Positions 3,892 through 54,799 of a DNA stretch of 64,000 nucleotides are shown here, piece by piece. This DNA comes from Dolosigranulum savutiense (GTDB taxonomy: Bacteria > Bacillota > Bacilli > Lactobacillales > Carnobacteriaceae_A). Below the pieces are notes generated by a model. That model did no database searches. It saw only the letters and a list, made by a program, of their open reading frames with translations, and was not told the DNA's origin. Every line of letters begins with the position of its first letter. The stretch's first letter is position 1. The stretch is taken from the NCBI RefSeq assembly GCF_039830095.1, contig NZ_CP142435.1, positions 682,001 to 746,000 of the forward strand. Reading direction: 5' to 3'. The position numbers and the translations under genes were made by a program.

Positions 3892-4833
3892 TTATTCTTC
3901 TTGTAAGCTTAAATCAAGCTCAGCTAATTTATTTTTCACTTCTTCAAGTGATTTACGTCCAAGATTTCGAACTTTCATCATTTCTGACTCCGTTTTTCCA
4001 GTAAGTTCTTGTACGGTATTAATGCCTGCTCGCTTCAAGCAGTTGTATGAACGTACAGATAAATCAAGCTCTTCGATAGTCATCTCAAGCATTTTTTCCA
4101 TCTGTGTTTCTTCTTTTTCTACCATGATTTCAGCATCGCGTGCTTCTTCAGTTAGATTGACGAAGATATCTAAGTGCTCAGTCATGATCTTCGCAGCTAA
4201 GCTTAGACCATCTTCTGGTGAAATAGAACCGTCAGTCCATACATCTAATGTTAATTTATCGAATTGATCTTGTTCGCCAACTCGCGTGTTTTCTACATTA
4301 TAGTTCACGCGTTTGATTGGGGTATAAATTGAATCAATCGGTAGCACTCCAATAGGCATATCATCATGTTTATTGTCTTCAGCGTCAACGTAACCACGGC
4401 CACGTTCTGCTTCCATACGAATGTGCAGATGTCCACCTTCAGATACGGTGCATAAATATAAATCAGGATTCATAATCTCGACATCGCTATCGTGAATGAT
4501 GTCGCCAGCTGTTACTTCAGCTGCTCCTTCAATATCCAATTCAATTGTTTTTGTTTCTTCAGTGTGGAGCTTTAAAGCAAGTTTCTTCAAGTTCAAGATG
4601 ATCGCTGTGACATCTTCTACCACACCATCAATGGCTGTAAATTCGTGCAAAACACCATCAATTTGAATGTTTGTCACGGCAGCACCAGGCAGTGATGATA
4701 ATAAAATACGGCGCAATGAATTACCAAGAGTGGTTCCGTATCCACGTTCTAGTGGATCGATCACAAACTTACCGAATTTTCCATCTTCGCTGACCTCAAC
4801 TGTTTCAATAACTGGCTTTTCAATTTCAATCAT
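3892..4833 (-). CDS. rpoA: RNA polymerase alpha subunit
   Basis: 313-aa subunit that nucleates core RNA polymerase assembly and contacts UP elements and activators. The N-terminal dimerisation domain ([20 protein letters not shown]) and the C-terminal helix-hairpin-helix domain ([19 protein letters not shown] ... [12 protein letters not shown]) are both intact. The frame stays open 21 nt upstream to a TTG, but the ATG at 4831-4833 ([10 protein letters not shown]) matches the family and has AAAGGA before it. Located 67 nt after rpsK, in the standard alpha-operon position. Confidence 0.97.
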
Positions 4834-4900
4834 TTGGTCCTTTACCCCTTTCAAAACGTTGTCAACGTCATAGTCTGTTCATTACATTGCAATATTATGA

Positions 4901-46154: not shown

Positions 46155-46266
46155 TTCATTATTTATAGACACGGAAATCATAAGATATTATTGTTATTAC
46201 TAAATAAGTTCGGTATAATAAAGCTAATCATTCACTCATTAATAAATAACCGAAAGGCAGGATATG

Positions 46267-46779
46267 ATGGCTCTCATTAATTATAAACAAGCACAACTAT
46301 TAGAATATTCACTGGAAGTGTTCAATACAGCACTCCGCGTCAAAAACTATACCCAAGAACAAGCAATTGAACCATTAACGATGGTCTTTAAAGATGATGC
46401 GGACATTTTTACAGCTCATTCATTACGATACAAAAAACTGGGCTCATTTGCATGTGGTAACTTTGATGCTAACTCGCTTCATGTCAACGAAACCCAACAT
46501 GACTTTAGAGACTGGGAAACCGAACCATCACTGATACATATTCGCCATAAAATTGATGCAATAACTAACAGTGACAAAAATATTGATAAGCTATTAGACT
46601 ATCCAGAATATTTAATGGAATTCTTAGTCGACTTCGTACACACTCACGAAAACCCGATAGACCAACCCCGTTATTGGTATAATTACCGTTCGCTCAAGCA
46701 TAACATTACATTTGATTTTAAAAAACATATTGATGGCACAAAATACGAACCCATTAGTATCATATACCAAAGTGAATAA
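46267..46779 (+). CDS. Hypothetical protein
   Basis: 170-aa soluble-looking protein, slightly acidic, rich in His, Asn and aromatic residues (HIRHKIDAITN, WYNYRSLKHNITF). AGGA lies just before two adjacent ATGs (46264, 46267). No signal peptide, membrane helix or family recognised. It follows the PTS terminators and precedes the intron-like remnant, so it is part of the accessory region. Confidence 0.5.
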   Translation: MALINYKQAQLLEYSLEVFNTALRVKNYTQEQAIEPLTMVFKDDADIFTAHSLRYKKLGSFACGNFDANSLHVNETQHDFRDWETEPSLIHIRHKIDAITNSDKNIDKLLDYPEYLMEFLVDFVHTHENPIDQPRYWYNYRSLKHNITFDFKKHIDGTKYEPISIIYQSE

Positions 46780-46821: not shown

Positions 46822-46893
46822 TATCGAGTAGGAGACTAGCCATTAATTGACTAGTCGTCTTCTCACACTACCGTACGTACAGATCCGTATACG
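46822..46893 (-). mobile_element. Group II intron 3'-end-like remnant, left copy
   Basis: On the minus strand: CGTATACGGATCTGTACGTACGGTAG... then GTGTGAGAAGACG, a GACTAG/CTAGTC hairpin and CTCCTACTCGAT. This resembles the ends (domains V-VI) of bacterial group II introns as I recall them. No intron-encoded protein is nearby. About 50 nt of it recurs in inverted orientation at 49129-49178. Confidence 0.5.
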
Positions 46894-47001
46894 ATGTTTC
46901 AACAATTTGAGTCTCTAAGCTGGTAAAGTAGATTGATACCTTTCAATCTCAACTTTATCAGTTTTTCTATTTTTATCGCTAAATGAAATTGTATGGTTTA
47001 T

Positions 47002-47030
47002 TTGACCAAAATTTACAGTTTTGTTAACAT
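47002..47030 (+). promoter_or_regulatory. Promoter of the leaderless-bacteriocin-like gene
   Basis: TTGACC (47002-47007), 17-bp spacer, TAACAT (47025-47030); the ATG is 26 nt beyond the -10. Confidence 0.6.
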
Positions 47031-47055: not shown

Positions 47056-47193
47056 ATGGTGGCTTTAGTAGGTTTGAAATCAGCAGCACTTGTGTACGGT
47101 CCTAAAGCAATTTTGTGGGTACAACAAAATTGGGGATGATTATCTACATTAGGAGCAACTGCTTTCAGAGAGCTTGACAAACAATTTGGTTAA
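47056..47193 (+). pseudogene. Leaderless class II bacteriocin-like gene interrupted by an in-frame TGA
   Basis: Frame from ATG 47056 (or GTG 47050): MVALVGLKSAALVYGPKAIL, then WVQQNWG, TGA (47137-47139), then LSTLGATAFRELDKQFG and TAA (47191-47193). Read through the TGA, it resembles the aureocin A53/BHT-B/lactolisterin BU group of leaderless bacteriocins: YGPKA, Trp-rich centre, LxxxG and AFR, at equal spacing and a total of ~45 residues. There is no leader peptide, which is normal for this group. The TGA may be a TGG to TGA change, giving a pseudogene or a 27-residue truncated peptide. A terminator and an ABC transporter operon follow. Confidence 0.6.
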
Positions 47194-47207
47194 TACTAAT
47201 GATATGT

Positions 47208-47245
47208 ACTAGACTAGAAGTATTGGTACTTCTAGTCTAGTTTTC
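47208..47245 (+). terminator. Terminator between the peptide gene and the ABC genes
   Basis: A perfect 15-bp stem (47208-47222 with 47227-47241), 4-nt loop TTGG, followed by TTTC. It would restrict transcription of the ABC genes relative to the peptide gene, a common bacteriocin-locus design. Confidence 0.88.
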
Positions 47246-47260
47246 TGAAAGGGGTAGTTT

Positions 47261-47893
47261 ATGAAAATTAAGCAACTAACACATCACTACGGAGATTTTT
47301 CGTTAAAAATTAAGGATCTAAATCTACCTAAAGAACATATTATAGGGCTTATTGGAGAGAATGGCTCAGGGAAGACAACTTTAATAGAAGCCATTGCGGG
47401 GGTCATCCAACCAGATCAATTTCATAAGCATGGTTCTCCGGAGCGAATACTCTATATCCCTTCAAATTTATCGCCTTATGGGTATTTAAGAGTTGGAGAA
47501 TTTTGCCGGTTAGTGATTAAATATAGTAATAAACAAATTAATATAAACACATTATTGGATAAATTGAAACTCTCTGATAAACAAGATGCAAAGATTTCAA
47601 CATTATCGCAAGGGATGAAGAAGAAATTGACCTTGATTAAATTATTTGTCGATGATTATGATCTTGTGTTATTAGATGAACCATTTCATGGAATTGATGT
47701 GAAATATATGAAAGATTTAAACCTGATATTATCAGATATTAAACAATCAACAACCATTGTCATTACATCACATGTTGCTGATAATTTAGTTCATATATGT
47801 GATAATTTCGTTCACTTAAAAGATGGGCAAGTGACGTCTATGTTTGATAATCCAGGGAATGTAGATGATATCAAGGAGTTTATGTATGATTGA
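47261..47893 (+). CDS. ABC transporter ATPase, putative bacteriocin self-protection
   Basis: 210-aa ATPase. Walker A GENGSGKTT, signature LSQGMKKKL and Walker B LVLLDEPFHGID are present, with the H-loop in ITSHVADN. Short for the family but complete. AAAGGGG precedes the ATG. It is coupled to two membrane proteins; next to a leaderless-bacteriocin-like gene, the likely role is export or immunity, by inference. Confidence 0.85.
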   Translation: MKIKQLTHHYGDFSLKIKDLNLPKEHIIGLIGENGSGKTTLIEAIAGVIQPDQFHKHGSPERILYIPSNLSPYGYLRVGEFCRLVIKYSNKQININTLLDKLKLSDKQDAKISTLSQGMKKKLTLIKLFVDDYDLVLLDEPFHGIDVKYMKDLNLILSDIKQSTTIVITSHVADNLVHICDNFVHLKDGQVTSMFDNPGNVDDIKEFMYD

Positions 47894-48536
47894 GGTATTG
47901 CAAGTGAAATTTTTATTGATGACTCGCCGATTAGGACTAGAAAAATTATGGCAGTCACTTATTGTGCATGGGTTCATCTTACTACCTGTTGTTATTGTAA
48001 AAGGATTGAGTTTGCTCTTGCCCAATCAGTTTCGCGTGGCCAGTTTTGCGCTATTGGCTATTGTGTTCCTTGGTGGATCACAGTGGGGTGTATCTACCAT
48101 CACGCAAGATGAACAGCGTATGAAAATGTTCTTCAATGGATTAGGATTGAAAAAAATTGAGCGGTTTTATCGATGGCGAAAGCCTGTGTCATTGATGATT
48201 TTGACAGCCATGCTATTATTTCCAGCATCTTTTTCACCCTCAGCTATTGCTTTTTATTTGTTTTTATTAGTTGTGTACTTAAGTGTTGTTTGTTTAGAGC
48301 TTGCGAGCACGTTAGTCTTCAGAAAGCATCCAGCTAAAAAGATTAATGCCTTTTTTCGAGTGGGGTATTTTGGACTCCATTATCTCATTATTGATGATAT
48401 TGAAGTGATTCACGAGTGGTTAATACAATTTGATGGGACACCAATGTTAATTGGATTACTCAGTTTAGGCATTATTTTAGTGGGTGTGAATTTATATGCT
48501 ACGTTAAACATACCTCGAAAGATGGACAATGTATGA
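47886..48536 (+). CDS. ABC transporter membrane subunit, first
   Basis: 216-aa protein with about six hydrophobic segments (e.g. SLIVHGFILLPVVIVKGLSL, FYLFLLVVYLSVVCLELAST). ATG at 47886 has AAGGAG 7 nt upstream and overlaps the ATPase stop by 8 nt. No family name recognised; the role as permease follows from operon structure. Confidence 0.7.
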   Translation: MIEVLQVKFLLMTRRLGLEKLWQSLIVHGFILLPVVIVKGLSLLLPNQFRVASFALLAIVFLGGSQWGVSTITQDEQRMKMFFNGLGLKKIERFYRWRKPVSLMILTAMLLFPASFSPSAIAFYLFLLVVYLSVVCLELASTLVFRKHPAKKINAFFRVGYFGLHYLIIDDIEVIHEWLIQFDGTPMLIGLLSLGIILVGVNLYATLNIPRKMDNV

Positions 48537-49024
48537 TACGATTTATATTACGCGTTGTTAGCCGAACTGACGTGAAGTATGAATTGCTGTCCTTGGTGTT
48601 GATGATATTTTTTGGATTGACAGATACATTGTTGTTAGAAGTATCAGTGATTGTAACAGGGATACTCATGTTGGGGCGTGTGTATTACGCGAGTTTAAAC
48701 GAGATGACTGTGAAATATTTATTCTTCTATTCAGTAGAAGATTATAAACAAGTGAAATATGCTGTGCTGAACGCACTATTGGTGGTCACAATATGTGTGG
48801 TTGGTGTGATATATGGGATAGATTATATATTTAGTCTAGGTGCATTTTCATCCCAATTAATCATATCCATCGCGATATTTTTTGCGATTAGCTACCTGCT
48901 TCCCATTCATATTGAGCGAGCTGTAGACAAAACGGAACCATTTATGACGAAGACAGATTTGTTGCTATTGTTGACTTTGACATATGTTTTAAATTTTGGG
49001 CTAGCTTTTTTGATGAACAAGTAG
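48533..49024 (+). CDS. ABC transporter membrane subunit, second
   Basis: 163-aa protein with four to five hydrophobic segments (LLSLVLMIFFGLTDTLLLEV, LLLLLTLTYVLNFGLAFLM). The start overlaps the previous stop (ATGA). Likely a partner permease subunit of the same transporter; not similar to a family I can name. Confidence 0.65.
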   Translation: MIRFILRVVSRTDVKYELLSLVLMIFFGLTDTLLLEVSVIVTGILMLGRVYYASLNEMTVKYLFFYSVEDYKQVKYAVLNALLVVTICVVGVIYGIDYIFSLGAFSSQLIISIAIFFAISYLLPIHIERAVDKTEPFMTKTDLLLLLTLTYVLNFGLAFLMNK

Positions 49025-49128: not shown

Positions 49129-49178
49129 GTGGTGTGAGAGGACGATTAGTCAATTAATGGCTAGTCTCTTGCTTGATT
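49129..49178 (+). mobile_element. Group II intron 3'-end-like remnant, right copy
   Basis: GTGGTGTGAGAGGACG, then TTAGTCAATTAATGGCTAGT and CTCTTGCTTGATT. It aligns with the minus-strand sequence at 46822-46871 with few differences, including the same GACTAG-type hairpin. The two copies are in inverted orientation around the bacteriocin/ABC module. Confidence 0.5.
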
Positions 49179-51461: not shown

Positions 51462-53078
51462 TTAAACAGTTTCACAATTGAACTGTAAATCAATCCGATC
51501 AATTTTAACATCTAAGTCTTCATACGGCATATGGCTTGTCAATATCAGTGGCGTCAATCGATCAGACACTTGGAATGGACCATACGTGCTACCGATCAAG
51601 TTGCTTCCCATCATATCATAATAGGCTGTTCCCACTTGTAAGCGATACTGCTTATCCGTTCGAGCTTGGCCCTGAATCGTCACGGAGACATCATTCGCAT
51701 CTGTCTCGAGATAGATTTCTTTTTTCGTATTTATTCGCTGTAGTGTGGTGTAATTCCCACTATCCACATAGCGGTAGTAATTTTTTAATTGCTCGCCACT
51801 CATCGATGTGGCCTCCGTGCGGTGATCGGGACGAACTAGCAAGTGATTGTCCAAGGTAACTTGAATCGTCCGAACACCTAGATTCTGCACACCTTCTGGC
51901 AGTGAGAAGGTCAGCTCTTTATGATCATCAGATACGGCGACTGTCTCGCCACTCTCTATTAAGACCGCTTCTCGCACCGAGTTCGCGATTCCACTAATCG
52001 TTACATCGTGTCTATCTGCATCAAAGATATGCACATACAGCCTATTATCTTTCGCCGTTAACTCTCCCCAACTTGGCGCAGGTAACTGGATCCCGCTTGT
52101 GCCAAAGAGACTATGCGCATGATTACGCAACCACTCACCAATTGCTTCTAAAACTTCCCGCTCAAATGGTACCAAGCTCCCGTCTCCTTTTGGCCCAATA
52201 TTGAGCAAATAATTCCCGCCACGAGCACGAACTGCGATGAGATTCTGAATCAATTGTGTCACCTTACCCGTCAGATCCTCACGCACTTGCCACGAACGAT
52301 AACCCCATGTCTCATGATAAATTGATGCCGGTGTCTGCCACGGTCCCTCCAGAGCCTGCGCTGGAATTTGATTATCACCTAACGTTCGGAAGTCTCCCTG
52401 ATTATGCCAAATCCGACCATTAATCGCACAATTCGGCTGAAAATGAGCAACTAATTGCTTCAAGCGTTGACTCTGCTCCAACGTCGGATAGCCCATATCG
52501 AACCATAATTCAACAATCTCACCATACTGAGTCAAGAGTTCCGTCAATTGGGCTTCAATATAATGGGCCAAATCAGATGAAATCCGATTATTGTTATCAT
52601 GATCATAGTCATGACCCGCATGCCAATCAACTAATGAATAGTATAATCCAAACTTTATCCCCTGACGTGCACACTCTTCCGCTAGCTCCCCAACAATATC
52701 ACGCTGTCCCGCCATATTTTCCACACTATTGTATGAGGTAGTCTCCGTCTTCCACAAACAAAATCCATCGTGATGCTTACTAGTTAATACAATATAGCGC
52801 ATCCCTGCCTGCTTCGCTAATTGAACAATCTCCTGAGGGTTAAAATGTTCTAGCGTCATCGCCTGAGCCTGCTTAAGATACTCTTCATCAGGAATATCAG
52901 CCCACATCTTAATCTGTTCGCTATATCCGTGCTTAACGGGCTTTCCCTTATATTCCCCACCAAATGCTGAATACACGCCAAAATGAATAAATAAACCGAA
53001 TCCCAATGTCTGCCACCGTTTCACTTTTACATCAGATGACGTGGGGCGAACGCCTTGAATACTCATCTGCTCTGCCAT
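51462..53078 (-). CDS. Alpha-L-fucosidase (GH29)
   Basis: 538-aa enzyme releasing L-fucose from glycans. Family markers: GFGLFIHFGVYSAFGG, LTSKHHDGFCLW and the nucleophile Asp in VELWFDMGYPT. A C-terminal beta domain (~residues 340-538) follows. No signal peptide, so it acts inside the cell on imported fuco-oligosaccharides. It begins 2 nt after nagZ, suggesting joint breakdown of N-acetylhexosamine- and fucose-containing host glycans. Confidence 0.93.
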   Translation of the reverse strand: MAEQMSIQGVRPTSSDVKVKRWQTLGFGLFIHFGVYSAFGGEYKGKPVKHGYSEQIKMWADIPDEEYLKQAQAMTLEHFNPQEIVQLAKQAGMRYIVLTSKHHDGFCLWKTETTSYNSVENMAGQRDIVGELAEECARQGIKFGLYYSLVDWHAGHDYDHDNNNRISSDLAHYIEAQLTELLTQYGEIVELWFDMGYPTLEQSQRLKQLVAHFQPNCAINGRIWHNQGDFRTLGDNQIPAQALEGPWQTPASIYHETWGYRSWQVREDLTGKVTQLIQNLIAVRARGGNYLLNIGPKGDGSLVPFEREVLEAIGEWLRNHAHSLFGTSGIQLPAPSWGELTAKDNRLYVHIFDADRHDVTISGIANSVREAVLIESGETVAVSDDHKELTFSLPEGVQNLGVRTIQVTLDNHLLVRPDHRTEATSMSGEQLKNYYRYVDSGNYTTLQRINTKKEIYLETDANDVSVTIQGQARTDKQYRLQVGTAYYDMMGSNLIGSTYGPFQVSDRLTPLILTSHMPYEDLDVKIDRIDLQFNCETV

Positions 53079-53080
53079 CT

Positions 53081-54637
53081 CTATTCCTCCACTCTAACTG
53101 GACTAACTCCTTCCAACTCACGTCTACCTACAATTGCTTCTAGAGCTGTCTTAACCGCTTCTGCTGAATTTTCGTACGTATTAATCCATCGCTCAATATG
53201 CTGGAACTGACGCCCGACATACGGCTGCTTTAATCCGATAAGATATACTGGGACTTGCTGGGCGATCTGGCTCATCAACTCAGCAAACGCACTCCCATCA
53301 GCTATACTCTTTACCCCAATAATCACCGCTTCCGCCTGATCTATTCGCTCGCGCAATATCGACTCATCGAAGGCCTGCTCATCCACAACAGCTGTCTCTA
53401 CTTGAGAAAAAATAGTCTGCGCTTGGCGGAATAATAATGACTCGCCATCTTGTGTATCTTCGGCGACTGTATCATGATGATCGACGACATCAATCACGAA
53501 CACAGCTGTATCGGCAGGAATGGCTTTTCCAACTTGCACATCCGTCACAGACTGCTGGTAAATATTTCGCGCCAACGCTTGCTTCTCTTCCGTGAAGAAT
53601 GATTTACCGAACTGATCCGCAGTAAAGGTTATCTTTCGACGCTCGATTAAGTCTTGAACGCGCGACTGAGCTGTTATTAATCTATCGGTCGTGATCTGAC
53701 CCGCTTCAGCAGCTTGATAAACTTGTTGTAAGGCTTGGATCTGTTCTTCATACGTATGCGAGACGATCAACATATCCACACCTGCTTGCAAGGCACGTAC
53801 CGCTGCCACAGCTACCCCAAATGTGGTCGAAATAGCTCGCATCTCCAAACAATCCGACACCACAACACCTTGATACCCTAGTTCCTCTCGCAATAAGTCT
53901 GTCATAACAGCAGAAGACAGTGTTGCAGGGGTCTGACCGTCTGTTTCAAGCGCATCGAAGACAATATGAGTCGTCATAATAGAATCAACGTTGTGCTCGA
54001 TCGCTTCAATAAATGGCTTCAACTCTACTTCGAAGAGTCGCTCGCGCCCGTGAGAAACATGCGGCAATGCCAAGTGCGAATCTACACTTGTATCCCCATG
54101 ACCTGGGAAGTGCTTCACTGAATGAACAATGCCACTTGCCTGATACCCCTGAATCGCAGCTGTAGCGAAGGAAGCCACTTTTGTCGGATCTTCTCCGAAC
54201 GATCGCACATTAATTACCGGGTTATCGGGATTATTATTCACATCCAACACCGGTGCCAGATTCCAATTAATCCCTAATGTTAATAAATCTTCTCCGGTCG
54301 CCTTAGCCACATCGAAGGCCCAGGTCGGTTGCTTTGTTGCTCCAATCGCCATCGCTCCCGGATATTCCATATATTGCCGAGGAATTCGCTTCACTGATCC
54401 ATTCTCTTGATCAATCGCAATTAACAACGGTTGCTCGTAGCCAGCTGCTTGCGCCTCCGCTTGCAAATCCGACGTCAACTGTCTAATTTGCTCCGGATTA
54501 GCCAAGTTCCGCGCAAATAAAATAATTCCCCCCACGTGGTACTCATGAATTAACGACTTCACCTGCTCATTAACCGTCAACCCATCAAACCCTACAACAA
54601 ATAATTTCCCAACTTGTTTTCTCAACTTGTCAATCAT
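53081..54637 (-). CDS. nagZ: Beta-N-acetylhexosaminidase (GH3, NagZ-like)
   Basis: 518-aa GH3 enzyme removing terminal beta-GlcNAc. The NagZ His/Asp motif is KHFPGHGDTSVDSHLALP and the nucleophile lies in VVVSDCLEMRAIS; AIDQENGSVKRI is also typical. Longer than Gram-negative NagZ because of a C-terminal GH3_C-like domain. No signal peptide, so cytoplasmic muropeptide or chitobiose/host glycan salvage. ATG at 54637 is preferred to one six codons upstream, which has no ribosome-binding site. Confidence 0.9.
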   Translation of the reverse strand: MIDKLRKQVGKLFVVGFDGLTVNEQVKSLIHEYHVGGIILFARNLANPEQIRQLTSDLQAEAQAAGYEQPLLIAIDQENGSVKRIPRQYMEYPGAMAIGATKQPTWAFDVAKATGEDLLTLGINWNLAPVLDVNNNPDNPVINVRSFGEDPTKVASFATAAIQGYQASGIVHSVKHFPGHGDTSVDSHLALPHVSHGRERLFEVELKPFIEAIEHNVDSIMTTHIVFDALETDGQTPATLSSAVMTDLLREELGYQGVVVSDCLEMRAISTTFGVAVAAVRALQAGVDMLIVSHTYEEQIQALQQVYQAAEAGQITTDRLITAQSRVQDLIERRKITFTADQFGKSFFTEEKQALARNIYQQSVTDVQVGKAIPADTAVFVIDVVDHHDTVAEDTQDGESLLFRQAQTIFSQVETAVVDEQAFDESILRERIDQAEAVIIGVKSIADGSAFAELMSQIAQQVPVYLIGLKQPYVGRQFQHIERWINTYENSAEAVKTALEAIVGRRELEGVSPVRVEE

Positions 54638-54799
54638 CTCGTCACTCTCTTTCATATACTTATCTCTGATAGCTCTTACATCTATAGTATATCAAATAAT
54701 ACCAAAAGAAAATAATAAATCCTCTAAACAATTATTCAGAAACACACTTATTTTTCCTAACTAAAGTGCTCCACCACACACAATAACTAACTGATTTAT

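Follow-up and report, generated by a model that had tools for sequence, protein, structure and literature searches.

The analysed window, a stretch of 64,000 nt from the Dolosigranulum savutiense genome (a single contig of 1,978,477 bp), contains a lactolisterin BU-type leaderless bacteriocin operon in which the structural gene is interrupted by an in-frame TGA and the three downstream ABC genes are intact (Table 1). The reading that we favour, with a probability of roughly 60%, is that the bacteriocin gene decayed recently while its immunity and export genes were kept. A murJ primer pair described as specific for D. pigrum (PMC10103046) matches this genome with a single mismatch in each primer and an expected product of about 224 bp, in keeping with an origin from D. 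pigrum or its sister species D. savutiense. The locus is a previously undescribed, probably inactivated member of a group of leaderless bacteriocin operons already known, and it extends lactolisterin BU-type operons beyond Lactococcus and Marinilactibacillus. If the favoured reading is correct, it also provides a concrete case of immunity genes that were retained after loss of the bacteriocin gene. The stop is a natural one at the boundary between the two halves of such a peptide to which killing and target range, respectively, have been attributed. Dolosigranulum is associated with a healthy nose, and the means by which it inhibits Staphylococcus aureus has still to be worked out (PMC7485692); an aureocin A53-like cluster in this genus was not found in the literature searched.

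Table 1 Features of the bacteriocin island and its flanks (positions within the window)
Feature	Position	Strand	Remarks
Group II intron 3'-end relic (domains V-VI), left island flank	46823..46902	-	73/80 identical to another genome copy matching RF00029
Sigma-70-like promoter, TTGACC-17-TAACAT, TG before second hexamer	47002..47030	+	9/12 matches
Leaderless bacteriocin-like structural gene, 45 codons	47056..47193	+	TGA interrupts at codon 28; both halves homologous
In-frame TGA, codon 28	47137..47139	+	Upstream product of 27 residues, equivalent to lactolisterin BU residues 1-25
15-bp hairpin, terminator/attenuator-like, between structural gene and abcT	47208..47241	+	Fold about -21 to -23 kcal/mol
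abcT-like ABC ATPase, 210 aa	47261..47893	+	PF00005, 5e-20; 45-47% identity to five relatives
accL-like membrane permease half, 216 aa	47886..48536	+	z 7-25 against homologs; 8-nt overlap with abcT
immL-like membrane permease half, putative immunity protein, 163 aa	48533..49024	+	z 5-9; 4-nt overlap with accL-like gene
Group II intron 3'-end relic (domain VI only), right island flank	49129..49177	+	44/49 identical; inverted relative to left relic

A structural gene homologous on both sides of its stop

The 45-codon frame runs from the ATG at 47056 to a TAA at 47191-47193, and its translation reads MVALVGLKSAALVYGPKAILWVQQNWG, stop, LSTLGATAFRELDKQFG, stop. As an earlier note on this DNA had claimed, the TGA lies within the frame; it is the sole internal stop, and the reading frame is unchanged past it. 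With this stop at codon 28, the locus holds no intact leaderless frame of about 42-53 codons, the length expected for PF11758. No in-frame ATG, GTG or TTG was found in the second half, which is therefore unlikely to be made separately, and a split gene whose second part has its own translation start was ruled out. An ATG at 47136 that overlaps the stop was likewise discarded as a start for the second half, as it opens only an unrelated 13-codon frame.

The search against leaderless bacteriocins that the earlier note proposed had a mixed outcome. Pfam and NCBIfam models gave no direct match to the window peptide (the curated cut-off of PF11758 was not reached) and a sequence search of the PDB returned nothing useful, but both halves of the peptide are similar to PF11758 members and are homologous to leaderless bacteriocins of this aureocin A53-like family, each half reaching significance against a different member. 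The first comparison is with an intact 43-codon peptide gene of Marinilactibacillus kalidii (locus L004, NZ_JAGFVM010000016.1, 4735-4863), whose product is a certified PF11758 member (E 6.7e-11) with lacticin Q and aureocin A53 as PDB neighbours. It aligns with the window peptide ungapped, with 13 of 43 residues identical and a score reached by none of 20,000 shuffles. The earlier note had made its reading depend on similarity past the TGA, and this similarity is present: residues 29-45, the 17 residues beyond the stop, share 8 of 17 positions with the M. kalidii peptide (p about 5e-5). Residues 1-27 match that peptide more weakly (p about 0.1, any segment and offset allowed), and their significant match is to a PF11758 peptide from another family of the same order (L018; score 54, reached by 0 of 3000 shuffles, p<1/3000).

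With the BHT-B/aureocin A53-like peptides (PF11758, Bacteriocin_IIi) the window peptide has in common a YGxKA core, Trp residues, an LG turn, an AFRxL...FG end and the lack of a leader, no leader or double-glycine motif being found in it. It differs from members of the family in its mid-gene stop, its lower positive charge (+2 with two Trp residues, against +4 for the M. kalidii peptide), the absence of Trp at position 2 and the unmatched Pfam model. In the column of codon 28, the aligned M. kalidii peptide has Glu. The proposed assignment to the aureocin A53/BHT-B/lactolisterin BU type holds for the BHT-B/lactolisterin BU branch, by homology and by operon match, whereas the AFR...final G part is shared much less with aureocin A53 itself. 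Searches with the M. kalidii peptide and with PF11758 turned up no further intact copy in this genome, although the same queries also missed the known locus.

Around the gene, the 15-bp hairpin that had been reported downstream was confirmed. An upstream promoter had been proposed as well, and a site of this type is present; such sites are common in shuffled sequences (18 found here against 10.8 expected from the shuffles), so this one is weak evidence when taken by itself. The ribosome-binding site of the structural gene is weak, at -3.7 kcal/mol compared with -9.5 for the M. kalidii gene and -8.3 for abcT, and an equally weak or weaker site precedes only 13% of the long frames in the window.

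ABC genes and the lactolisterin BU operon

The lactolisterin BU operon of the Lactococcus lactis plasmid pBU6 consists of lliBU-abcT-accL-immL, with the hairpin TT1 between lliBU and abcT; export is attributed there to abcT and accL, and immL confers a limited degree of immunity (PMC6249370). The window shows the same layout, with structural gene, hairpin, abcT, accL and immL following one another in this order and the ABC genes overlapping, and its hairpin occupies the place of TT1. The description of three coupled, dedicated ABC genes in the earlier note stands, since all three are open, overlap and match this operon (PMC6249370). The ATPase retains all of its motifs (GENGSGKTT, LSQGMKKK, LVLLDEP and TSH), and its five relatives at 45-47% identity include a lactolisterin BU-type plasmid locus. 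Homology to the lactolisterin BU-type operon was found for all three genes: abcT is 46% identical, and against the Lactococcus plasmid genes the accL-like protein reaches z 6.9 (hyp1/accL) and the immL-like protein z 7.0 (hyp2/immL). From this homology we infer functions in immunity and export, with the immL-like protein as the putative immunity protein by analogy with hyp2/immL (PMC6249370).

The likeness extends to small details. The gap between structural gene and abcT measures 67 nt in the window and 64 in the lactolisterin BU operon, abcT overlaps its downstream neighbour by 8 nt in both, and the second and third products have 216 and 163 aa in the window against 212 and 169 aa. Genes 2 and 3, in contrast, overlap by 4 nt in the window and lie 3 nt apart in the lactolisterin BU operon. 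The window further differs in the TGA within the structural gene, in a diverged N-terminus, in its chromosomal location and in the group II intron relics at its flanks.

Among sampled genomes, the ABC module is rare, occurring in 5 of 395 genomes of the order (this one included) and in 1 of 399 of the class, namely this one. With the ATPase as query, the module was also recovered from Tetragenococcus halophilus, Facklamia miroungae and M. kalidii. The M. kalidii locus resembles the window in having a homologous ABC ATPase (46%) and permeases with a PF11758 peptide directly upstream; it differs in its uninterrupted peptide, in the fusion of the permease halves to a single protein of about 410 aa, and in its strong ribosome-binding site. 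The only plasmid relative found is on pLLUC7005A of Lactococcus (L010; abcT 46% identical), whose DNA contains the published 3' half of TT1 and the ribosome-binding sites of abcT, hyp1 and hyp2 in their proper places, which identifies the locus as a lactolisterin BU operon that lacks the structural gene. The plasmid has kept abcT, accL and immL, has lost the structural gene together with the 5' half of TT1, and has an IS6-family transposase gene downstream; it represents another case of immunity genes without a bacteriocin. No recognisable peptide was found upstream of the module in Tetragenococcus, Facklamia, genome G331 or the Lactococcus plasmid, and a module without a peptide is thus a recurring state.

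Fate of the structural gene

The earlier note had left three fates side by side; a pseudogene with kept immunity fits best, a 27-residue peptide retains some probability, and readthrough of the TGA is unsupported. In the favoured reading, a nonsense codon would recently have inactivated the structural gene of a lactolisterin BU/BHT-B-type operon, and the intact ABC module (ATPase and two membrane halves) was probably kept for removing or excluding bacteriocins of this type, and, judged from immL in the lactolisterin BU operon, would confer immunity. The strain would then most likely be an immune non-producer that makes no active peptide. Homology past the TGA can still be recognised (8/17), which suggests that the loss was recent. 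Decay is further favoured by the weak ribosome-binding site, the low charge, the missing Trp2 and the intact PF11758 peptide at the M. kalidii module, as well as by the lactolisterin BU-like operon layout, the lack of a start codon in the second half, the ordinary use of TGA as a stop and the repeated occurrence of modules without a peptide. Counting against it, the gene is a single codon away from an open frame, activity has been described for a lactolisterin BU fragment of the truncated length (PMC12348470), the comparison covers this strain alone, and a base-call error would look identical.

The chief rival, which we regard as unlikely, is that the TGA marks a shorter but still functional gene end, so that the strain makes a 27-residue peptide, exports it through the ABC module and kills relatives with it. 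To place the stop, we mapped it onto lactolisterin BU through the ungapped alignment with the M. kalidii peptide, which matches lactolisterin BU at W2, G3, G13 and H23 (residue numbering from PMC12348470). The TGA falls at position 26, leaving residues 1-25. Residues 1-24 of lactolisterin BU are reported to be enough for activity, residues 25-43 modulate the target range, and a 1-31 form is found in nature (PMC12348470). The 27-mer shares an Asn with BHT-B (Asn23) and a Pro with lactolisterin BU (Pro14), its residues are strongly conserved relative to L018, and none of promoter-like site, hairpin and ABC genes is missing. It lacks Trp2, however, and in lactolisterin BU the exchange W2E leaves no measurable activity up to 50 ug/ml; a charge of just +2 and the weak ribosome-binding site also speak against a working product, and the undecayed half after the stop is more in keeping with a recent mutation than with an established short gene. 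That the TGA has indeed become settled as a functional end, with the strain making a minimal 27-residue leaderless bacteriocin under lactolisterin-type ABC export, seems to us slightly less probable still. If this were true, the 27-mer would be the natural counterpart, in a nasal commensal, of the shortest active lactolisterin BU fragment from the laboratory.

A further reading, rather improbable, is that sequencing or assembly introduced the TGA in error, or that this one isolate carries it as an unfixed variant, the gene of the species being open over 45 codons. One substitution would be enough, the frame past the TGA is intact and conserved, and the genus is represented by one genome in the comparison. 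The genome, on the other hand, is assembled as a single contig, an indel error is excluded by the unchanged frame, and polished assemblies seldom contain single-base substitution errors.

Readthrough or suppression of the TGA that yields some full-length 45-residue bacteriocin is very improbable: the frame past it is open and homologous, but TGA is an ordinary stop in this genome. It terminates 7 of the 41 frames in the window that span at least 200 codons, and within the operon both abcT and the following gene end at TGA. The RF2 gene prfB is standard and has the ordinary CTT-TGA-C autoregulatory frameshift site. From this stop usage and the standard RF2, a recoded TGA was rejected; a TAG noticed inside prfB is merely the zero-frame reading upstream of this site. 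The base following the TGA at codon 28 is T, which is not known to be a leaky context, and no recoding signal was seen for this stop.

Genomic surroundings

The bacteriocin segment is A+T-rich, with 34.9% G+C compared with 41.9% for the window, as is the adjoining upstream stretch. Its flanking inverted repeats were considered as transposon ends and rejected, because they are 3'-end relics of group II introns. At least nine further copies of this motif occur in the genome, those tested match RF00029, and two of the inspected copies have a reverse-transcriptase-like frame alongside. Base composition and intron relics together suggest that the island is an acquired segment in an insertion-prone place. 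A phage or plasmid context was not apparent, with no matches in viral contigs and no match to the peptide in plasmids. Upstream of the island, a 171-codon gene (46264-46779), for which Pfam and NCBIfam yielded no significant family match, lies in the A+T-rich stretch that continues the composition of the island. Further along the window, on the reverse strand at 51462-54655, adjacent alpha-L-fucosidase-like and NagZ-like glycosidase genes presumably point to the use of host glycans.
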